Shown: positions 18,401 through 58,983 of the stretch, piece by piece
Layout: each line of letters begins with the position of its first letter
How positions within the stretch are numbered: position 1 is the first letter of the stretch
Origin: Thermoleophilia bacterium
GTDB taxonomy: Bacteria; Actinomycetota; Thermoleophilia; Miltoncostaeales; Miltoncostaeaceae
Reading direction: 5' to 3'
NCBI GenBank assembly: GCA_020438485.1
Contig: JAGQUM010000002.1
Span: 1-64,000, forward strand
Length of the DNA stretch: 64,000 nucleotides
Translations under genes and position numbers: made by a program
Notes under the pieces: model-generated
Databases searched by the model: none
Seen by the model: the letters and a program-made list of their open reading frames with translations, nothing else
Told to the model about the DNA's origin: nothing

Positions 18401-18771
18401 CGCGCACCCCCGTCCGGCGTGACGAACTCGGGCTGGTCGATGAGGCGCAGCCACGAGCCGTCGGGCTGGCGGCGCACCACCTGGGCGCGGGCGCCCGCGC
18501 CGTCGCGGGGCGGCGTGGACGTCAGGGCGATGTCGCCGCACACCAGCGTCGGCAGCGGCTCCTCGAGCGTGAACACCGGGCCGTGGGACAGGACCTCGGC
18601 CCACATCCGCTCGATGGCGTCCCGGCCCGACGTGACCCGCCCCGGCGGGTAGGCCACGACGGCGTCCTCCTCGTAGAGGGCCGCGACGCCCGCGGCGTCG
18701 CCGGCGTTCGAGCGCTCCACGAACAGGCGCGTGATGTCCTCGGGGGTCTGGGGATATTCGTGAGTGGTCAT
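18397..18771 (-). CDS. SnoaL-like/NTF2-fold protein
   Basis: Cone-shaped NTF2-like protein of 124 residues. TPEDITRLFVERSNAGDAAGVAALYEEDAVV is the typical first helices and strand, GRDAIERMWAEVL follows, and VVRRQPDGSWLRLIDQP is the last strands. Members act as small isomerases, hydrolases or binding modules; the substrate here is unknown. The ATG at 18771 faces the LysR gene across a 70-base intergenic region holding a dyad, so it is the probable LysR target. Confidence 0.82.
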   Translation of the reverse strand: MTTHEYPQTPEDITRLFVERSNAGDAAGVAALYEEDAVVAYPPGRVTSGRDAIERMWAEVLSHGPVFTLEEPLPTLVCGDIALTSTPPRDGAGARAQVVRRQPDGSWLRLIDQPEFVTPDGGAR

Positions 18772-49867: not shown

Positions 49868-49984
49868 CCGGGTCGTCGCGGCGCTCGCGCGCCCCGGCGG
49901 ATGCTCGCAGCCCTGCGGCTTCCGAAAGCCGTGGCGTGCACCCCGGACCTCAAGAAACGCGCTACGTGCGCCGAAGGGGTGGAC

Positions 49985-52198
49985 ATGGGTCCCATGGCAC
50001 GTGCCCGCGTGACGGCCGCGCTCATCGGCGTGGCGGCTTTGCCGATCCCGGCCGCCCTCGTCGTGTACCTCGCCACCGATGAGCCCCTCACGTCGTTCGC
50101 GATCGTCGTCGCGCTCAGCACGGGGCTCGCCGCCCTGGTCGCCGCCGGTCAGCTGTGGCACGCCGGGCGGGCCACCGTCGGGCGCGGTCGCCAGCTGCAC
50201 AACCGCCTGGCCCTGGGGTGCGTCCTGTGGGGCGTCGGCGCCTTGCCCTACGTGGCGTTCGTCGTGTCCGGCGGAAGCGCCACCACGCCCGCCCCGTGGA
50301 CCCAGATGGGCTTCCTGCTGGCGTACCTGCCGTGGTGCGCGGCTCTCTGGAAGGTCCGGCAGCCCGTCGTCGTCGAGAACCGTCGCGCCATCGCGTCCGT
50401 CGTCGCGGTCGAGACGCTCGCGCTGGTCTCGGTCTGCGTGGCGCTGGCGTCGGCGCTGTGGGACGACCAGCTGCCCGCGTCGACGAACGCCGCGCTCCTT
50501 CTGCCCGTCGGCGTCGATCTGCTGATGCTCACGGCCGCATACTCCACCGTGCGGCGCGCATCGCTGCGTCCCGACTCGCTGTACGGCTGGCTGGTGGGCG
50601 CCTTCGCCGCGCTGACCGCGTCCGACGCTGTCGTGTCCGTGGGCATGGCCGGCACCCCGAAGACCCACATGCTCGTGGCCGGAAACCTGGGGTACGTCCT
50701 GTCGTTCGCGTTCATGGCCGTCGCCGCCGGTCGGCAGCTGCACCTGCGCGAGTCTACGCTGGCGGGCGAGCGCCTCACCGTCGCCGCCGCGGCCATCGGC
50801 CTGGCGATGGTGGGACCCGCCGCGACGCTGGCCCCGGCGCCCCTCAACATCGTCATGTGGTTCGTCGGCGCGGCCCTCGCGTGGGCGCTGCTGTGCTTCG
50901 TGCGCGGCCTGCGCGTGTCCGACCAGGACCGGCTCACCGGCCTGTGGGACAGCAAGGCGTTCGCCCGGCATGCGGGGCCCCTGGCGGCCATGGCCTCCGA
51001 GGCGCACCCCGTGGGCCTCGTCGCCGTCGACCTGAACGGGTTCCGCCGCTGGAACGCCGAGCGCGGGTTCGTCGCGGGCGACCGTCTGCTGGTGACGTTC
51101 ACGGAGGCGCTTGCCGAGGCCGTGGCCCGCCCCGGCGCGTGGGGGCGCCTCGGGCCCGACCGCTTCGCGTGGGTCGGTAGCGTGCGCGACGCCGCCGACG
51201 CGCAGTTGCTGGCCCGCCGGGCCCTGGAGGCCACCGCCCCCGACCGTGAGGGGCTCGACGCCCGCGCCGGCGTCGTGGTGTGCCCCGTCGACGCGGCCAC
51301 CATCGAGAACGCCCTGGCCGCCGCCGAGGAGGCGCTTGAGGCGGCCCGGTCCGCCCCGTCGCGCGTCGTCTGCTTCGACCGCGGGCTCCTGGAGGGCGCC
51401 AACGCGTCCGCGCTGTCGTCGGCCTCGTACCGCTCGCGCCACGAGCGCATCGTCGCCCTGCTCGCCGACCCCGAGAGCATCCGGTCCGCGTACCAGCCCA
51501 TCGTGGGCCTCGGCTCACTCGACGTGATGGGCTTCGAGGCGCTGGCCCGGTTCCAGATTGAGCCTCTCCGCGGGCCGGACTGGTGGATCGCCGAGGGCCA
51601 CCACGTCGGCCTGGGCGTCGAGATCGAGGCGGCATGCGCGCGGCGTGCGCTGACGGAGGCGCAGCGGCTCACCGGCTGGCGCTACCTGGCCGTCAACGCC
51701 AGCCCCCAACTGATCCTGTCGGACGGGTTCGAGCACCTCTTCCCCGCGGGCAACCTCGACTGGCTCGTGATCGAGGTCACCGAGCACCACAAGGTGCGCG
51801 ACTACGCGGCCCTCGCCGACGCGCTCCACGGGCTGCGTGCCCGCGGCGCCCGCGTCGCCGTCGACGACCTGGGTGCCGGTCACTCCACGTTCGCCCACAT
51901 CACGCGGCTGCGGCCCGACATCGCGAAGCTCGACCGGTCGATCGTCGAGGGCGTCGACGTCGACGGCGTCAAGCAGGCCATGGTCCGGTCCATGGTGGCG
52001 TTCAGCCGCGAGACCCGCTGCACGCTGGTGGCCGAGGGCGTCGAGACCCGCGGCGAGTGGGAGACCCTCCGCGCGCTCGGCGTGGGCTATGGCCAGGGCT
52101 ACCTGTTCCAGCCCCCCGACGAGGATCTGGTCGAGACCGTGCGCCTGCGCCGGGAGGTCGAGGATCTGGAGACCCGGACGCCCCTCGGCGCCCAGTGA
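49985..52198 (+). CDS. membrane protein with degenerate GGDEF and EAL domains (c-di-GMP phosphodiesterase)
   Basis: 737 residues. About eight to nine N-terminal helices are followed by a GGDEF-like domain whose signature is LGPDRFAW, so the cyclase is probably inactive. The EAL domain has YQPIVGLGSLDVMGFEALAR, the VNAS metal-site Asn, IEVTEH, VDDLGAGHS, IAKLDRSIVEG, LVAEGVET and GYGQGYLF, so PDE activity is likely. It would hydrolyse c-di-GMP. ATG 49985 is used; the same frame is open from ATG 49901 but there is no better Shine-Dalgarno. Confidence 0.92.
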   Translation: MGPMARARVTAALIGVAALPIPAALVVYLATDEPLTSFAIVVALSTGLAALVAAGQLWHAGRATVGRGRQLHNRLALGCVLWGVGALPYVAFVVSGGSATTPAPWTQMGFLLAYLPWCAALWKVRQPVVVENRRAIASVVAVETLALVSVCVALASALWDDQLPASTNAALLLPVGVDLLMLTAAYSTVRRASLRPDSLYGWLVGAFAALTASDAVVSVGMAGTPKTHMLVAGNLGYVLSFAFMAVAAGRQLHLRESTLAGERLTVAAAAIGLAMVGPAATLAPAPLNIVMWFVGAALAWALLCFVRGLRVSDQDRLTGLWDSKAFARHAGPLAAMASEAHPVGLVAVDLNGFRRWNAERGFVAGDRLLVTFTEALAEAVARPGAWGRLGPDRFAWVGSVRDAADAQLLARRALEATAPDREGLDARAGVVVCPVDAATIENALAAAEEALEAARSAPSRVVCFDRGLLEGANASALSSASYRSRHERIVALLADPESIRSAYQPIVGLGSLDVMGFEALARFQIEPLRGPDWWIAEGHHVGLGVEIEAACARRALTEAQRLTGWRYLAVNASPQLILSDGFEHLFPAGNLDWLVIEVTEHHKVRDYAALADALHGLRARGARVAVDDLGAGHSTFAHITRLRPDIAKLDRSIVEGVDVDGVKQAMVRSMVAFSRETRCTLVAEGVETRGEWETLRALGVGYGQGYLFQPPDEDLVETVRLRREVEDLETRTPLGAQ

Positions 52199-52750
52199 CC
52201 CGGTAGGCCGCCGGGTGGGGCGCCGATGGCGATGTGGTGGCGGTGGGTATCGCGGGTGCGCCCTGTCCGGTGCGGCGGATGAGGAAGCTCGTCCGGCCGG
52301 GAACGGGGCGGTGGGCGTGCGGCCAGAACCCGACGCGGGGTGCCGTCGCGTTCATCCGAGTGGGTGTCGCCGTGGGCCGGTCGGGAGGTGAACCTCGAGT
52401 ACGAAGGGGGATGAGGTCCCCGGCGGGCAGGCGCGGGCGGGCGGTTCTCGTGAGCGCGGAGGCGCCACCGGCCGCCGCGACATCCGCCTCACCCTCGGCG
52501 TGCCCGCTCCGCCGGCGCGTGTCGGCGGCCTGACGAAAGGCCCCCATGCCGGTGGCGACGTGGGCCACCGCGCCACCCGCTCGGGGTCCCGTCAGCCCCC
52601 AGAGCCGGCCAGCCGGCGCACGCCCAGCGTCGACGCGTGTCGGTGAGCCCCCGGCTCACGCGTGGCGTACGGGCCACTCCACGCCCTCCACGTGGCCCCG
52701 CCCCACCCGGACCGTCGTCAGCGGCGCGCGCAATCGCCACACCGAGGACG
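52199..52750. other. intergenic stretch between EAL and FeeM-like genes
   Basis: No gene I can support. A 99-codon plus-strand frame (52234-52533) has Arg- and Ala-rich composition and no domain. It contains a hairpin at 52643-52659. Confidence 0.5.
52643..52659. terminator. small hairpin downstream of FeeM-like gene
   Basis: GTGAGCC-CCC-GGCTCAC, seven perfect pairs with a three-base loop. It lies 92 bases downstream of the minus-strand FeeM-like stop. It may end that transcript. No U-tract. Confidence 0.5.
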
Positions 52751-53461
52751 TCACCCCGCAAGCTCGAGGCTGGGCGTACCCCGACGCACCCCGGGCGTCG
52801 GCGGATGCACGGCCCCGGCGTGCGACGTCAGCCACGTCGGGTGGGGGTCGTGGAACAGGGCGCCCGCGCTGCGGCGCATGATCCCGCCGGGCCCGCTGAT
52901 GTACTCGCGCATCTCGTGCAGCGGCAGCGCCATGAGCACCGCGGGCGCGCCGTACAGCGCGCGCTCCTCGCCCAGGGGGCGCATGCCGAAGCAGGATGCG
53001 TAGAAGCGCGCCTGCTCGGGCGCGACGGTGCAGATGGCGACGTCGGGTCCGCCCTCGTACGTCAGCCGGCGCAGGTGGGCGACGATCATCATGAGTACCG
53101 CGTGGCGGCTGACGCCGCGGTGCTCGCGGGCCACCACCAGGGACCCCAGCTCGAACGGCGCGCCGCCCAGCGCCCGGGCAGCCGCCACCTCGAGGGGCAT
53201 CTCGGCCTCGGACGGCAGACCGTACGGGCCGTCGGGGACGACGCAGCAGGCCGCAACGGCCCGGTCGCCCAGGTACGCGAGCGCGAAGACCGTGCCCGGG
53301 GTCAGGTAGTGCGGCAGCACGCGCCGACCCGACGGGGTCGGTGACATGAACCCGGACTCGACGAACCCGTCGTGCACCAGCACGAGGGCGGGGTCGAGGT
53401 CGCGGATGCGGTCGGTGAGCACGACGCCGAGCTGCTCCGTCGCGCGGTGATGCGAAGCCAA
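52751..53461 (-). CDS. FeeM-like N-acyl amino acid synthase
   Basis: GNAT-related protein of 236 residues matching the FeeM catalytic core. HDGFVESGFMSPTPSGRRVL, PHYLTPGTVFALAYLGDRAV and FELGSLVVAREHRGVSRHAV are diagnostic; the later EQARFYASCFGMRPLGEE matches the C-terminal lobe. FeeM joins a long-chain acyl group from acyl-ACP to an amino acid and has a LuxI-like fold. TTG 53461 has a ten-base perfect Shine-Dalgarno, GAGGTGATCC, which contains the stop of the upstream PaaK-like gene. The two genes are therefore tightly coupled. The exact product is unknown. Confidence 0.8.
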   Translation of the reverse strand: MASHHRATEQLGVVLTDRIRDLDPALVLVHDGFVESGFMSPTPSGRRVLPHYLTPGTVFALAYLGDRAVAACCVVPDGPYGLPSEAEMPLEVAAARALGGAPFELGSLVVAREHRGVSRHAVLMMIVAHLRRLTYEGGPDVAICTVAPEQARFYASCFGMRPLGEERALYGAPAVLMALPLHEMREYISGPGGIMRRSAGALFHDPHPTWLTSHAGAVHPPTPGVRRGTPSLELAG

Positions 53462-53468
53462 GGGGGGA

Positions 53469-54791
53469 TCACCTCGTGTAGCGGGGCTTGTGGGTCCAGT
53501 CGTCCGGGGCGTGAAACGGGTACTCGGCGGCGGCGTGCCAACGCACGTCCACGGGCTCGCCTGCGACGCCTGCGACGACGGCGCGGAGGGTGTCGGCGTG
53601 GCGGGCCGCGGGCGGCGCGTCGTGGCGGCACTGCACGTGCAGGGTCAGCGGGGCGCCGTCCGCCGCGGGCTCCAGGCGGAATCGCCCCGTGACCTGGTCG
53701 GCAAGGCCCGCATCGCTGAAGAGCGCCTCCTTGACCGCCTCGGGACGCGGCACCCCACCGGGGGTGCCGCCGCGGCCGAACAGGGCGACGACCGGCCCGT
53801 CTAGCGCCACGCCGGTGAGCTCCGCGAGGTCGTCCACATCGGCGTCGGTCAGGTGGTGGGCCAGGTCGCCCGTCTCGTAGCGCACCAGCGGGATGAGCGC
53901 GGCGTGCAGCGGCGTGAGGGTCAGCCGCCCGGCACCGGCCCTCCGCGGGGTCTCGACCAGGAGGCGCTCCGGGTCGTACCCGAGCAGCGCCGGGACCACG
54001 CCGGGTCCCGCGGCGCGCGCCCAGCCCGGGCCGGGCCCGGCGGCCAGCGCCGCGCGGGCGGCCCCCAGCGAGGGCGTCTCGAACAGCAGGTGAAGGCCGA
54101 TCTCCGCGCATCCCATCGACACGGCCACCCGATACGGCTCGATGCCGAGCAGGCCGCACGCGTACGCCTTCCACGACGCGGCCACGGGTTCGCCACCCGT
54201 GAACACCCACATGTCGGGGTGGGCGGGCCCCCGCGCGCGCCACCCGCGCGCCAGCTCCGCCAGGAACAGCGGCTCGCCCAACAGCACCAGGCGGTCGAAG
54301 CGGGGGGCGATCTCGCCCAGCACGTGCCGCGCCATCTCGAGGTGAACCGACGGCGTCGCCACCGTGGCCAGCGTGCATGGTGCCGCCACACCCATCGGGA
54401 GAACGTTCACCAGCAGGGTCGAGGATCCGGGCCCCGCCCCCAGCGCGGCCAGCAGGCCGTCCGTGCGGGCGGCCAGCGCGTCGCGCTCGCCGGGCGACAC
54501 GAGGCCCACCGAGAACGGCGGGCCGGACTGGCCACTGGAGCACACGATCTCGGCCGCGGCCCCGGGGTCGGCGGCGGCCCACTCCCACGGGGAGCCGAAC
54601 ACCGCGGCCTTCGACGTGGGGGGGATGGCCTCCCAGTCGCCCACAGAGGATGCGTCGACGCCGCGCCCCGCGAGGTGCCGACGGTAGCCGTCGCTGCGGG
54701 CGGCGGCGTCGCGGAACACGGTCCACGCCGCAGCCGGTATGGGGCACTTACCTAACAAATTCATCCTTTGGACGCATTCCGCGTTGCCCAT
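53469..54791 (-). CDS. PaaK/LuxE-like adenylate-forming enzyme
   Basis: Up to 440 residues. IVCSSGQSGPPFSVG replaces the TSGTTG phosphate loop and LVRYETGDLAHHL supplies the Tyr/Thr-Gly-Asp motif; WVFTGGEPV and MGCAEIGLHLLFE lie between. The form is that of PaaK/LuxE-type ligases, which make acyl-AMP and pass it to a thiol. Here the most likely job is activating a fatty acid or an amino acid for the FeeM-like partner. ATG 54791 gives the longest product. TTG 54758 is better placed after an AAAGGA Shine-Dalgarno and may be the real start. Confidence 0.78.
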   Translation of the reverse strand: MGNAECVQRMNLLGKCPIPAAAWTVFRDAAARSDGYRRHLAGRGVDASSVGDWEAIPPTSKAAVFGSPWEWAAADPGAAAEIVCSSGQSGPPFSVGLVSPGERDALAARTDGLLAALGAGPGSSTLLVNVLPMGVAAPCTLATVATPSVHLEMARHVLGEIAPRFDRLVLLGEPLFLAELARGWRARGPAHPDMWVFTGGEPVAASWKAYACGLLGIEPYRVAVSMGCAEIGLHLLFETPSLGAARAALAAGPGPGWARAAGPGVVPALLGYDPERLLVETPRRAGAGRLTLTPLHAALIPLVRYETGDLAHHLTDADVDDLAELTGVALDGPVVALFGRGGTPGGVPRPEAVKEALFSDAGLADQVTGRFRLEPAADGAPLTLHVQCRHDAPPAARHADTLRAVVAGVAGEPVDVRWHAAAEYPFHAPDDWTHKPRYTR

Positions 54792-54809
54792 TTACGGTGA
54801 GTGCGTCAA

Positions 54810-54838
54810 TTAATAACTGGCCTCATACAATTCGTGAA
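54810..54838 (-). promoter_or_regulatory. promoter of the PaaK-like/FeeM-like operon
   Basis: On the minus strand TTCACG (54838-54833), a 17-base gap and TATTAA (54815-54810). The region 54730-54840 is markedly AT-richer than the surroundings. The transcript would start near 54803, just ahead of ATG 54791. Confidence 0.55.
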
Positions 54839-55176
54839 GCGGACCCCCGTTCAGGCGTGTCCCGGCCATCCGTAGTGCCGCGGCTGGCCGGGACCCCTCC
54901 GGCGGGGCGGTGCCGGCCGTCCGACCCGGGGGGACGCGCCCCGCGATCCGCGCGTGTCGTCGGGTTGCGGCGTGCCCGCATCCCGCCGCACCGGTCGCCC
55001 CGCCCCACCTCGGCGGCGTCCCCGGGGCCGCCGCCGCGGCGCCGGCGGGTCGCATGTGGAGATCCGCGGCGTGCGCATCACGTGCGGCGTGCGCCCGCCG
55101 TCAACGGCGGCGGGCGCCGCCCGATCGGTCCCCGGCCGGCATCGGCGCCGACGAGGCGACGCGGCGGTGGCCCGGC
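54839..55176. other. intergenic stretch between PaaK-like promoter and glnA stop
   Basis: No supportable gene. It holds two GC hairpins: TCCCGGCCA/TGGCCGGGA (54860-54893) and the stronger one annotated at 55091-55117. Confidence 0.5.
55091..55117 (-). terminator. hairpin after glnA
   Basis: GCGCCCGCCG pairing with CGGCGGGCGC, ten perfect pairs and a seven-base loop, 60 bases after the glnA stop on the minus strand. No U-tract. Confidence 0.65.
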
Positions 55177-56499
55177 CTACAGCAGGGGCAGGTAGTGGTC
55201 GCGCTCCCAGCCCGTGACGTGCGCGCTGAACGCGGTCCACTCCGCCCGCTTCATCTCGACGAGCCGCGCGTGGATGTGCTCCCCGAACGCCCGCAGCAGC
55301 AGCTCGCTCGCCGCCGCGGCCTCCACCGCCTCTCCCAGCGTGCCCGGCAGCGCCTCCACGCCCGCCCGCAGCCGGTCCTCGTGGGTGAGGTGGTACAGGT
55401 TCGTCTCCATCTCGGGAGGCAACTCGGCGCCGTGCTCCACTCCGTCGAGCCCGGCGTGCAACAGTGCCGCCAGCGCGAGGTACGGGTTGCACGCCGGGTC
55501 GGGGTTGCGCAGCTCGGGCACCGTGGCGGCCTCGCCCTCGTGCCGGTGGCCGGGCACGCGCACGATGGACGACCGGTTGCGGGCGCTCCACCCCACGTAC
55601 ACGGGCGCCTCGAATCCCGGAATGAGGCGCTTGTACGAGTTGACCCACTGGCTGTAGACGACCGACGTCTCGCGGGCCGCGGCCAGCACGCCCGCGACGA
55701 ACGCCTTGCCGACCGGCGACAGCAGGTGCTCGTCCTCGGCGTCGTGGAACGCGTTCTGGCCGTCGCGCCGCAGGTGGAAGTGCATGTGCATCCCCGAGCC
55801 GTTCTGGTCGCCCAGCGGCTTGGGCATGAACGTCGCGTACCACCCGTGGGCGTGGGCCACCTCCTTGACGACGGTCCGGTACGTCATCACGGCGTCCGCC
55901 AGGTTGAGGGCACCCGCGCCGACGATGTCGATCTCGTGCTGGCTGGGCCCGCTCTCGTGGTGCGAGAACGCCACGTCGATGCCCAGGTGCTCGAGCGCCA
56001 GAACGGTGGACCGGCGCACGTCGCTGGCCGCGTCGAGCGTCGTGAGATCGAAGTAGCCGCCGCGGTCCAGGGGCTCCGCGCCCCGGTCGTCGCGGAAGTA
56101 GAAGAACTCCATCTCGGGCGCGACGTGCAGCTCGTCGAAGCCCATCGCGCGGGCGCGCTCCTCGGCGCGGCGCAGCACGTAGCGGGGGTCGCCCTCGTAC
56201 GGGCGGCCGTCCGTCGTGTTGACGTCGCAGAACACCCGGGCAACGCCCATCTCCTGGGGGCGCCATGGCAGGACCGCGAACGTCGACGCGTCCGGCACGG
56301 CCACCATGTCGGTCTCCTCCACCGGGTTCGATCCGGTGATGGACGACCCGTCGAACCGCACACCGTGCTCCAGCGCGGCGGGGAGCTGCTCCGCGGGTAT
56401 CGCGACGCTCTTGAGGCTGCCGAGGATGTCCGTGAACCACAGCCGGACGAACTTCACGTCGTGCTCGCGAACGGCGTTCAGCACATGCTCGCGGGTCAT
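55177..56499 (-). CDS. glnA: glutamine synthetase type I, alpha-like
   Basis: ATP-dependent ammonium assimilation into glutamine, 440 residues, dodecameric family. RLWFTDILGSLKSVAIPAEQ, GVRFDGSSITGSNPVEETDM, PEMEFFYF, GDQNGSGMHMHFHL, YKRLIPGFEAPVYVGWSARN and NPDPACNPYLALAALLHAGL are the catalytic and family motifs. The C-terminal region (METNLYHLTHEDRL, ALPGTLGEAVEA) matches GSI-alpha, and I see no adenylylation Tyr motif (NLYDLP), so regulation by GlnE is unlikely. ATG 56499 has AAGGAAGG upstream. It follows the GSIII gene by 88 bases and may be cotranscribed. Confidence 0.93.
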   Translation of the reverse strand: MTREHVLNAVREHDVKFVRLWFTDILGSLKSVAIPAEQLPAALEHGVRFDGSSITGSNPVEETDMVAVPDASTFAVLPWRPQEMGVARVFCDVNTTDGRPYEGDPRYVLRRAEERARAMGFDELHVAPEMEFFYFRDDRGAEPLDRGGYFDLTTLDAASDVRRSTVLALEHLGIDVAFSHHESGPSQHEIDIVGAGALNLADAVMTYRTVVKEVAHAHGWYATFMPKPLGDQNGSGMHMHFHLRRDGQNAFHDAEDEHLLSPVGKAFVAGVLAAARETSVVYSQWVNSYKRLIPGFEAPVYVGWSARNRSSIVRVPGHRHEGEAATVPELRNPDPACNPYLALAALLHAGLDGVEHGAELPPEMETNLYHLTHEDRLRAGVEALPGTLGEAVEAAAASELLLRAFGEHIHARLVEMKRAEWTAFSAHVTGWERDHYLPLL

Positions 56500-56587
56500 T
56501 TCGGGGGCCTTCCTTGAAGTACGGGTCGAAACGGCGCCGGGCCGCACGAGGCGGCCCGACGGTACAGCACGGCCTCGCCCTGGGGGC

Positions 56588-58747
56588 TCAGCGGATGAAC
56601 AGCATCTCCGAGTACTTCGGCAGGGGCCACAGGTCGTCGGCGACGATGCGCTCCAGCCGGTCGGCCAGGGTCCGTACCTCGGCGACGGCGGGAAGCACCG
56701 TGTCTCGCATGTACGGCACCTCCTCCTTGACCGTCTCGGGGTGGACCTCATTGACGTCGGCCAGCTTCACGATGGCCTTCACGAAGTCCTCCACGATGGG
56801 CTTGACCTGGTCGGTCAGCGCGTCGATGCCCGACTCGTCGATCAGGTCGAGGTAGCGCAGGGCGGCGGGAAGCAGCATCGTGCGCGCGATATCGGCGGCG
56901 GTTTCGGCCTCGATGTTGAGGAACGCGATGTACTGCTCCTGGGCGATCTCGAAGCGGGCCTCCAGCTCGCGCGCGCTCAGCACGCCGTAGTTGCCGAACG
57001 TGGCCACCGTGGTCTTGGACACCATCTCCGGCAGCGCGTCGGGCGTGGTGCGCAGGTTCTTCAGGCCGCGCTTCTTGGCCTCCTTGTGCCACTTATCGCT
57101 GTAGCCGTCGCCGCCGAACACGATGCGGGAGTGCTTCTTGTACGTCGCGGCCACCGCGGCCGACACCGCCTCGTCGATCTTGGCCTTGCTGCGCGCGCCG
57201 CCCTTCTTGGCCAGCGCGGCCTCGACGTCCTCCCGCAGGGCGTCGATGGACTCGGCCACGATCGTGTTCAGCACCGTGTTCGGGAAGCTCGGCGACATGC
57301 TGGCGCCCAGCGCGCGGAACTCGAACTTGTTGCCCGTGAAGGCGAACGGGCTGGTGCGGTTGCGGTCGCCCGAGTCCTTGGGCAGGTCCGGCAGAACCGG
57401 GCTGCCCAGGCCCATGAACTCGCCCTTCGGGCTCACGTAGATGTTTCCGTCGGCGAAGCCCTGGAACACGCGTTCGAGCTCCGTGCCGAGGAAGATCGAG
57501 ATGATCGCCGGCGGTGCCTCGTTCGCCCCCAGGCGGTGGTCCTGGCCGGCCGACGCCACGGTGGCGCGCAGCAGGCCCTGGTGGATGTCGACCGCCCGGA
57601 TCACGGCCGCGGCGAAGAACAGGAACCGCATGTTCTCGTGCGGCGTGTCGCCGGGCTCCAGCAGGTTGTCGCCGTCGTCGGTGCCCATCGACCAGTTGTT
57701 GTGCTTGCCCGACCCGTTGACGCCGGCGAACGGCTTCTCGTGCAGCAGGCAGACCAGGCCGTACTTGGGTGCCTCGCGCTTCAGGATCGTCATGACCAGC
57801 TGCTGGTGGTCGCAGCCGAGGTTCGTGGTCTCGAACATCGGGGCGATCTCGTACTGGCCCGGGGCCACCTCGTTGTGGCGCGTCTTGATCGGCACGCCCA
57901 GCCGCTTGAGCTGGTCCTCGGTGTCCATCATGTAGGCCAGCACGCGCTCGGGGATCGTGCCGAAGTAGTGGTCGTCCAGCTCGTGGCCCTTCGGGGGCTT
58001 CGCTCCGAACAGCGTGCGGCCCGTGTTGACCAGGTCGGGGCGCTGGTAGAAGTACGTCTCGTCGATGAGGAAGTACTCCTGCTCGGGGCCCATCGTCGTC
58101 GACACGCGCGCCACGCCCTTCGTACCCAGCACGTCCAGAGCCGCCAGCGCCGACTTGTTGATGGCCTCCATCGAGCGCAGCAGCGGGATCTTGTGGTCGA
58201 GTGCCTCGCCCGTCCATGAGGTGAAGCCGGTCGGGATGCACAGCGTGACGCCCATGGGGTTGCGCATCAGGAACGCCGGGCTGGTGGGGTCCCATGCCGT
58301 GTAGCCGCGGGCCTCGAACGTCGCGCGGATGCCGCCGGTGGGGAAGCTGGACGCGTCGGGCTCGCCCTGCACCAGCTGCTTGCCGCTGAACTGCGCCAGC
58401 GACGTGCCGTCCCCGACCGGGTCGAAGAAGGAATCGTGCTTCTCGGCGGTGGAGTTCGTGAGCGGCTGGAACCAATGCGTGTAGTGGGTCGCACCGTTCT
58501 CCAGAGCCCAGTCCTTCATGGCGATGGCCACGGCGTCCGCGATCGCCGGGTTGAGCGTCTGGCCCTTGTCGACCGTCTTCTGCAGTTCGCGGTAGACGTC
58601 CTTGGTCAGTCGCTTGCGCTGCTCCGTGGGGCCGAAGACGTCGATTCCGTACGTCGAGCCGGACGCGCCGAGCTCGCTGTCGAAGTGCCGGTCGGGGTCG
58701 GGCGTCCACTGTGCGGCGCTGACATTGGCGAGGCGGATCCTGGGCAT
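56588..58747 (-). CDS. glutamine synthetase type III
   Basis: Large GSIII (GlnN) enzyme of 719 residues. [94 protein letters not shown] and [20 protein letters not shown] are the family motifs. ATG 58747 begins [15 protein letters not shown] is a less common form with its own C-terminal extension. Presence with a GSI-alpha suggests different ammonia conditions for each. It diverges from the PucR regulator across a 236-base gap. Confidence 0.95.
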
Positions 58748-58983
58748 TCTTCGTGCGTCCCTTCGGTCGGCTGAGCGCGGTCGGTGCGGGCGGCGCGAAT
58801 CGCCGGCGTGCTCGGCCTCGTACGCACGCACCGGAAAACGATCACAGACTAGTGGTCCCCCCACAAAGGCCGCGTTCGACCGGCGAACAATCTTCCGGGT
58901 ACGCGTTTGGCCGCGTGTCCAACCGGGTCCGCGTCCGCCCGGCGCCGGCGGCGTGTGGGCCCCGGAACGCCTATCCTTGGCCC

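Follow-up and report, generated by a model that had tools for sequence, protein, structure and literature searches.

The window, meaning the whole stretch of 64,000 nucleotides that was analysed, contains a two-gene operon that encodes a PaaK-like adenylate-forming ligase and a FeeM-type N-acyltransferase, together with the gene for a membrane GGDEF-EAL protein that stays beside this pair in related genomes (Table 1). We propose that the three proteins form a module for the synthesis and reception of a signal, a reading whose chances we consider evenly balanced. The genome (G000) belongs to the Miltoncostaeaceae (Thermoleophilia, Miltoncostaeales; labelled family f1) and its assembly has 2.58 Mb in 91 contigs; the GC content of the window is 73.3%. 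Both open reading frames of the pair lie where the original prediction had placed them and are also called by a gene finder based on codon usage, and the operon is real.

Table 1. Coordinates of the features of the locus, numbered from the first nucleotide of the window
Feature	Position	Strand	Basis
PaaK-like adenylate-forming ligase, 440 aa	53469..54791	-	Profile, AlphaFold model, motifs
FeeM-type N-acyltransferase, 236 aa, TTG start	52751..53461	-	PF21926, AlphaFold model, E104
Shine-Dalgarno match GAGGTGATCC, ten bases, includes PaaK stop codon	53466..53475	-	
AT-rich leader, presumed operon promoter	54731..54850		
Membrane protein, degenerate GGDEF + EAL, candidate receptor	49901..52198	+	Pfam, invariant EAL residues, linkage
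Sensor domain, 7-9 TM, of the GGDEF-EAL protein	50021..50920	+	Hydropathy peaks, profile A4

The identities of both enzymes are well supported. The FeeM-like protein scores 79.4 bits against PF21926 (FeeM), for which the curated cut-off is 27 bits, and nearly the whole profile is covered. A profile made from 12 FeeM relatives has FeeM itself (2g0b, E 4.6e-6) as its sole match among solved structures. The AlphaFold model (pLDDT 88) has the same structure as its best match in the PDB (E 1.9e-11), followed by the CoA-dependent acyl-homoserine lactone synthases BjaI (2.8e-9) and RpaI (4e-8). The predicted family membership and LuxI-like fold are both borne out by these matches. Residue E104 aligns with Glu95, the proposed catalytic glutamate of FeeM, and is kept in every sequence; the counterpart in Nas354 is Glu103, whose role there was shown by mutation (PMC4897644). 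The protein has no match to PF00765 (Autoind_synth) at E 0.1, while the FeeM proteins of family f29 do match it weakly. Neither a PilZ domain nor any other added domain was found using Pfam. A ThiF-FeeM fusion (PRK14852) was considered and rejected, the match being confined to the FeeM part.

Judged by profile and model, the 440-residue protein is a divergent PaaK-fold ligase. It has no significant Pfam match. With a ten-member profile (A1), PaaK structures are recovered (2y4o, E 4e-12), and the AlphaFold model (pLDDT 78) matches PaaK1, BT_0428, ClxA, NatL2 and AjiA1 with E values of about 1e-16 to 1e-15. The motifs SSGxxG, SMGxAE and RYxxxD and a C-terminal lysine are invariant in alignment A1, and the fold and ATP/adenylate motifs of the PaaK-fold adenylating superfamily are present in the window ligase. 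The PaaK-like proteins of the Miltoncostaeaceae score under all curated family cut-offs; for TIGR02155 (phenylacetate-CoA ligase PaaK) the best in the family reaches E 6e-5, short of the curated cut-off, and the window protein is not among the matches. These low scores would fit a reading in which the FeeM-like protein is a generic GNAT acyltransferase for an amine other than an amino acid, and the PaaK-like protein is inactive or regulatory. We consider this very improbable, given that the catalytic glutamate and the three motifs are invariant and that the PaaK-like fold is complete.

The structural neighbours of the model indicate that the substrate of the ligase is probably a small or aromatic acid. 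AjiA1, NatL2 and ClxA are PaaK-like ligases that serve natural-product pathways. The original description of this partner as PaaK/LuxE-like holds for PaaK, on the profile and the model. It does not hold for the acyl-protein synthetase LuxE, because both a Pfam LuxE domain and an invariant cysteine in A1 are missing. Rhodococcus and Williamsia (L053-L058) have a PaaK-like ligase that shares 25% identity with that of the window. Its gene follows one for an NTPase of ~600-1300 aa, and close by are a small LuxR-HTH gene and another that encodes a protein starting with SISAVVDEAGLSHQTFHNTYPG. FeeM was not found near these loci, whose regulatory setting is a different one and is apparently conserved.

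The stop codon of the ligase gene (TGA, 53471-53469) does lie within the ten-base Shine-Dalgarno sequence GAGGTGATCC, as had been proposed; the ten-mer has one further occurrence in the window. In relatives, the ligase stop and the feeM start overlap or closely abut. The region upstream of the operon is indeed the most AT-rich of the window, with a peak over 100 bp of 53% at 54741 and a runner-up of 49% at 18751. The good promoter that was expected there was not recovered, a scan of positions 52100-55250 giving no sigma-70 promoter. A riboswitch or other RNA upstream of the operon was also sought, and no Rfam match was obtained. The start of the window ligase is ambiguous, with an alternative ATG at 54764. 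Tandem glutamine synthetase genes lie upstream of the operon (55177-56751, type I-like, and 56588-58864, type III), and these are not kept beside the pair in relatives.

The PaaK-like protein is present in 12 of 149 genomes of relatives, all of them Miltoncostaeaceae, and no additional strong match emerged when 399 members of the class were searched with a profile. FeeM directly follows the ligase gene in 11 of the 12, so that the predicted adjacency is retained; the remaining one, G007, has a contig that stops within the ligase gene. The complete genomes in the set are G012 and G025. The latter is Miltoncostaea oceani, also of family f1, and its contig 2 is 100% identical to plasmid NZ_CP064357.1 over the 6 kb tested.

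It had been stated that there is no signal receptor gene nearby. This is doubtful, because a conserved membrane GGDEF-EAL gene lies downstream, convergent with feeM and ending 552 bp from its end. The protein matches PF00563 (EAL) with 151 bits and PF00990 (GGDEF) with 57.8 bits, and its GGDEF motif is degraded to GPDRF. The inspected catalytic positions of the EAL domain (E, N, E, DD, K, E, Q) are all invariant across relatives (alignment A3), and the intact EAL domain qualifies the protein, as far as sequence goes, as a c-di-GMP phosphodiesterase. Hydropathy indicates 7-9 hydrophobic segments at the N-terminus, and this transmembrane (TM) sensor domain has no Pfam match. Orthologues with the same TM-GGDEF-EAL architecture adjoin the pair in 11 of 11 genomes, wherever the position is visible; that of G015 is split by a single frameshift, and G008 retains the gene at a contig edge. 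The gene is convergent with feeM in genera g1 (the window and G001), g6 (G006, G015) and g10 (G010), and codirectional in g8, g11 and g12. The phosphodiesterase thus stays beside the pair despite changes of orientation, down to ~40% protein identity, and is the best candidate for a receptor of the pair's product. The sensor profile A4 gives 255-450 bits with the pair-adjacent genes and 178-209 bits with paralogues elsewhere in G000 and G001. These paralogues have the same sensor domain and are distant from any FeeM (L137 in G000:C66, L138 in G001:C26, L139 in G001:C45); they may be receptors, either of the same ligand or of a different one.

FeeM genes are found beside c-di-GMP phosphodiesterase genes in other settings. 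Within the Miltoncostaeaceae, G005 has a lone FeeM gene, with no ligase, divergent from a GGDEF-HD-GYP gene; the N-terminus of the HD-GYP protein was rejected as a homologue of the sensor domain (E 0.8). In family f29, FeeM is followed in G505 by a methyltransferase and then a TM-GGDEF-HD-GYP protein, and in G475 by that TM domain again, in a gene that runs off the contig. In family f75, a PAS-GGDEF-EAL gene adjoins the FeeM-like gene or lies within ~1.2 kb of it at nearly all loci not ended by the contig (G691, G666, G741, G740, G718, G714, G715, G720, G722, G725 and G724, with G743 as an exception), where many of the FeeM-like genes are below the Pfam cut-off and are assigned by a broader profile built in this analysis. 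In genus g328 of this family (L171, L175, L179) there are GGDEF-EAL genes on both sides of the FeeM-like gene. The FeeM gene of G547 has no phosphodiesterase neighbour. In G666 (L134, 8060-8542), a gene that by eye resembles a pyruvoyl-dependent arginine decarboxylase directly precedes the FeeM gene, and could supply agmatine as amine acceptor.

Comparison of the TM domains using hhalign gave E 2.7e-5 for f1 against f29 and 5e-6 for f29 against f75, compared to 0.04 or worse for unrelated membrane proteins, and in each of these two comparisons the domains look distantly related. Homology between the f1 and f75 domains was not accepted, the direct comparison being not significant.

The window genome has 46 GGDEF matches in its 2.58 Mb (7-53 in the other genomes), which is an unusually dense c-di-GMP network, and therefore adjacency in this genome alone says little. 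The chance of one FeeM-phosphodiesterase adjacency is ~1-6% per genome, a rough figure that ignores shared descent within families. The pairing is convincing because it recurs in three families and through changes of orientation, and we regard it as strongly supported. The density of GGDEF genes also fits a simpler explanation, in which the product of the operon is an ordinary specialised metabolite, be it an N-acyl amino acid, a lipid or an aryl amide, and only shared regulation or chance connects the phosphodiesterase with it. The structural relationship of the ligase to AjiA1, NatL2 and ClxA points in this direction, as do the lipids and biosurfactants made by FeeM relatives (PMC10404671, PMC4897644). 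Such a metabolite locus would hardly be expected to retain an orthologous phosphodiesterase so far into divergence, or to show phosphodiesterase neighbours again in other families. Moreover, apart from the phosphodiesterase, the pair has no neighbour with a biosynthetic, transport or tailoring role that is conserved across genera. On this evidence we think the explanation rather unlikely.

Some relatives have a further component. A LuxR-type ATPase regulator (LAL) of 870-900 aa, with a GerE HTH and AAA/TPR regions, is encoded immediately upstream of the ligase gene in G011, G012, G017, G019 and G025, and in G010 its gene lies beyond the phosphodiesterase gene. Orthologues (>480 bits) occur only in genera g8, g10, g11 and g12, and where contigs are long enough to show it they are adjacent to the pair. 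The palindrome TGGTCA-N4-TGACCA, a candidate operator to which the regulator may bind, is located 87-110 nt ahead of PaaK, in the interval that separates the ligase gene from the LAL gene. Exact copies number one each in G012, G025, G019 and G017 and three in G011, the ligase promoter always being among them, and a control pattern gave zero matches. In G010 the palindrome has one mismatch. Some genomes that lack LAL have single copies at other places. G006, which also lacks the LAL orthologue, has two exact palindromes on one contig (C52; L184, L194), at 1132 and 4235, 3.1 kb apart. No LAL orthologue was found in the window genus or in g6, the window genome giving HTH-level matches only, and the palindrome is not found in the window genome, including the operon leader. 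The operon of the window is therefore controlled in some other way.

In the proposed signalling module, the PaaK-like enzyme would adenylate a carboxylic acid, which may be an aromatic or a short-branched one, and would probably load it onto CoA. The FeeM-like enzyme would then use the activated acid to acylate an amine, which is probably an amino acid, and so give an N-acyl amide that may be diffusible. The TM domain of the membrane protein would detect this product, upon which its EAL domain would hydrolyse c-di-GMP. In Miltoncostaea and its relatives, the LuxR-type ATPase regulator with its palindromic operator would add control of the operon. The points against a signalling module are the distant relationship of the f1, f29 and f75 sensors, the dense GGDEF genes, the paralogues without FeeM, the G547 locus, and the ill-defined ligase start and promoter in the window. 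More tentatively, and with somewhat less than an even chance, the locus may belong to a new type of quorum sensing in Actinomycetota, in which N-acyl-amide signals made by FeeM-family enzymes are read by membrane EAL or HD-GYP phosphodiesterases. FeeM and the phosphodiesterase would be its core, the PaaK-like ligase would be the means by which the Miltoncostaeaceae supply an unusual acyl group, and the LuxR-type ATPase and 18-bp palindrome would be additions in Miltoncostaea.

The flow of information could instead run the other way. The product of the enzymes would then be an N-acyl amide that is surface-active or lies in the membrane and serves life on surfaces, and c-di-GMP, set locally by the phosphodiesterase, would time its production. 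There is a precedent in Nas343 and Nas354, which make the biosurfactant N-acyltyrosine and were modelled as a FeeM-type domain with a c-di-GMP-binding PilZ-like domain (PMC4897644); among the references of the same paper is one on NasP being directly activated by cAMP. Such a reversal accounts for both EAL and HD-GYP partners. However, the window FeeM has neither PilZ nor any other extra domain, and the frequent multi-TM sensor partner, the dedicated LuxR-type regulator and the unique palindrome are left unexplained. We consider it unlikely, while regarding it as the main rival to the signalling module, and the sequence evidence does not choose between the two.

Several known systems resemble parts of the locus. 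The window FeeM shares family, fold and position of the catalytic glutamate with the FeeM-type synthases, including NasY and Nas354. It differs in being coupled to a PaaK-like ligase, in having no adjacent acyl-carrier protein gene, and in its linkage to a c-di-GMP phosphodiesterase. Given its structural similarity to BjaI and RpaI, it would make sense for a ligase to provide it with acyl-CoA, but unlike them it has no PF00765 match, and nothing points to a homoserine lactone. In the tyz cluster of Mycobacterium tuberculosis, TyzA is likewise an actinobacterial FeeM/BjaI-like acyltransferase, which uses acyl-CoA and tyrosine; this cluster is linked to nitroreductase and ThiF-type enzymes, and the accessible part of the paper describes no PaaK-like or phosphodiesterase gene there (PMC10404671). 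The ligase has the fold and adenylation motifs of PaaK1, ClxA, NatL2 and AjiA1, but is only 15-20% identical to PaaK-type ligases and below the curated cut-offs.

A functional parallel is with RpfF and RpfR, whose genes are convergent and where RpfR is a phosphodiesterase activated by BDSF (PMC6361424). Here too, a synthase gene is convergent with the gene for a GGDEF-EAL phosphodiesterase proposed to bind the product. The synthase is of another family, the candidate receptor has a TM sensor and no FI or PAS domains, and the organism is one of the Actinomycetota. The proposed system would thus be analogous to RpfF/RpfR in the way it works, without membership in that family. The Miltoncostaea relatives resemble LuxI/LuxR and the lux box in having a LuxI-fold synthase, an adjacent GerE-HTH regulator and one promoter palindrome. 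In contrast to LuxR, the regulator is a large ATPase-TPR protein with no detected autoinducer-binding domain, and the window genome lacks it. The pairing of FeeM with a c-di-GMP phosphodiesterase was not found described in the literature outside subscription papers, and its novelty is provisional.

A 2022 review found direct evidence for only two receptors of quorum signals in c-di-GMP networks, namely RpfR and an AI-2-sensing cyclase (PMC8846402), and a 2016 review gave no reports of quorum sensing for Thermoleophilia (PMC4748050). The physiological role of N-acyl amino acids has been called unclear (PMC4897644). The locus described here ties these three subjects together, and the full arrangement is present in Miltoncostaea oceani SCSIO 61214, which has been cultured and sequenced. 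The arrangement is kept in related actinobacteria, and may therefore be an undescribed system of cell signalling.
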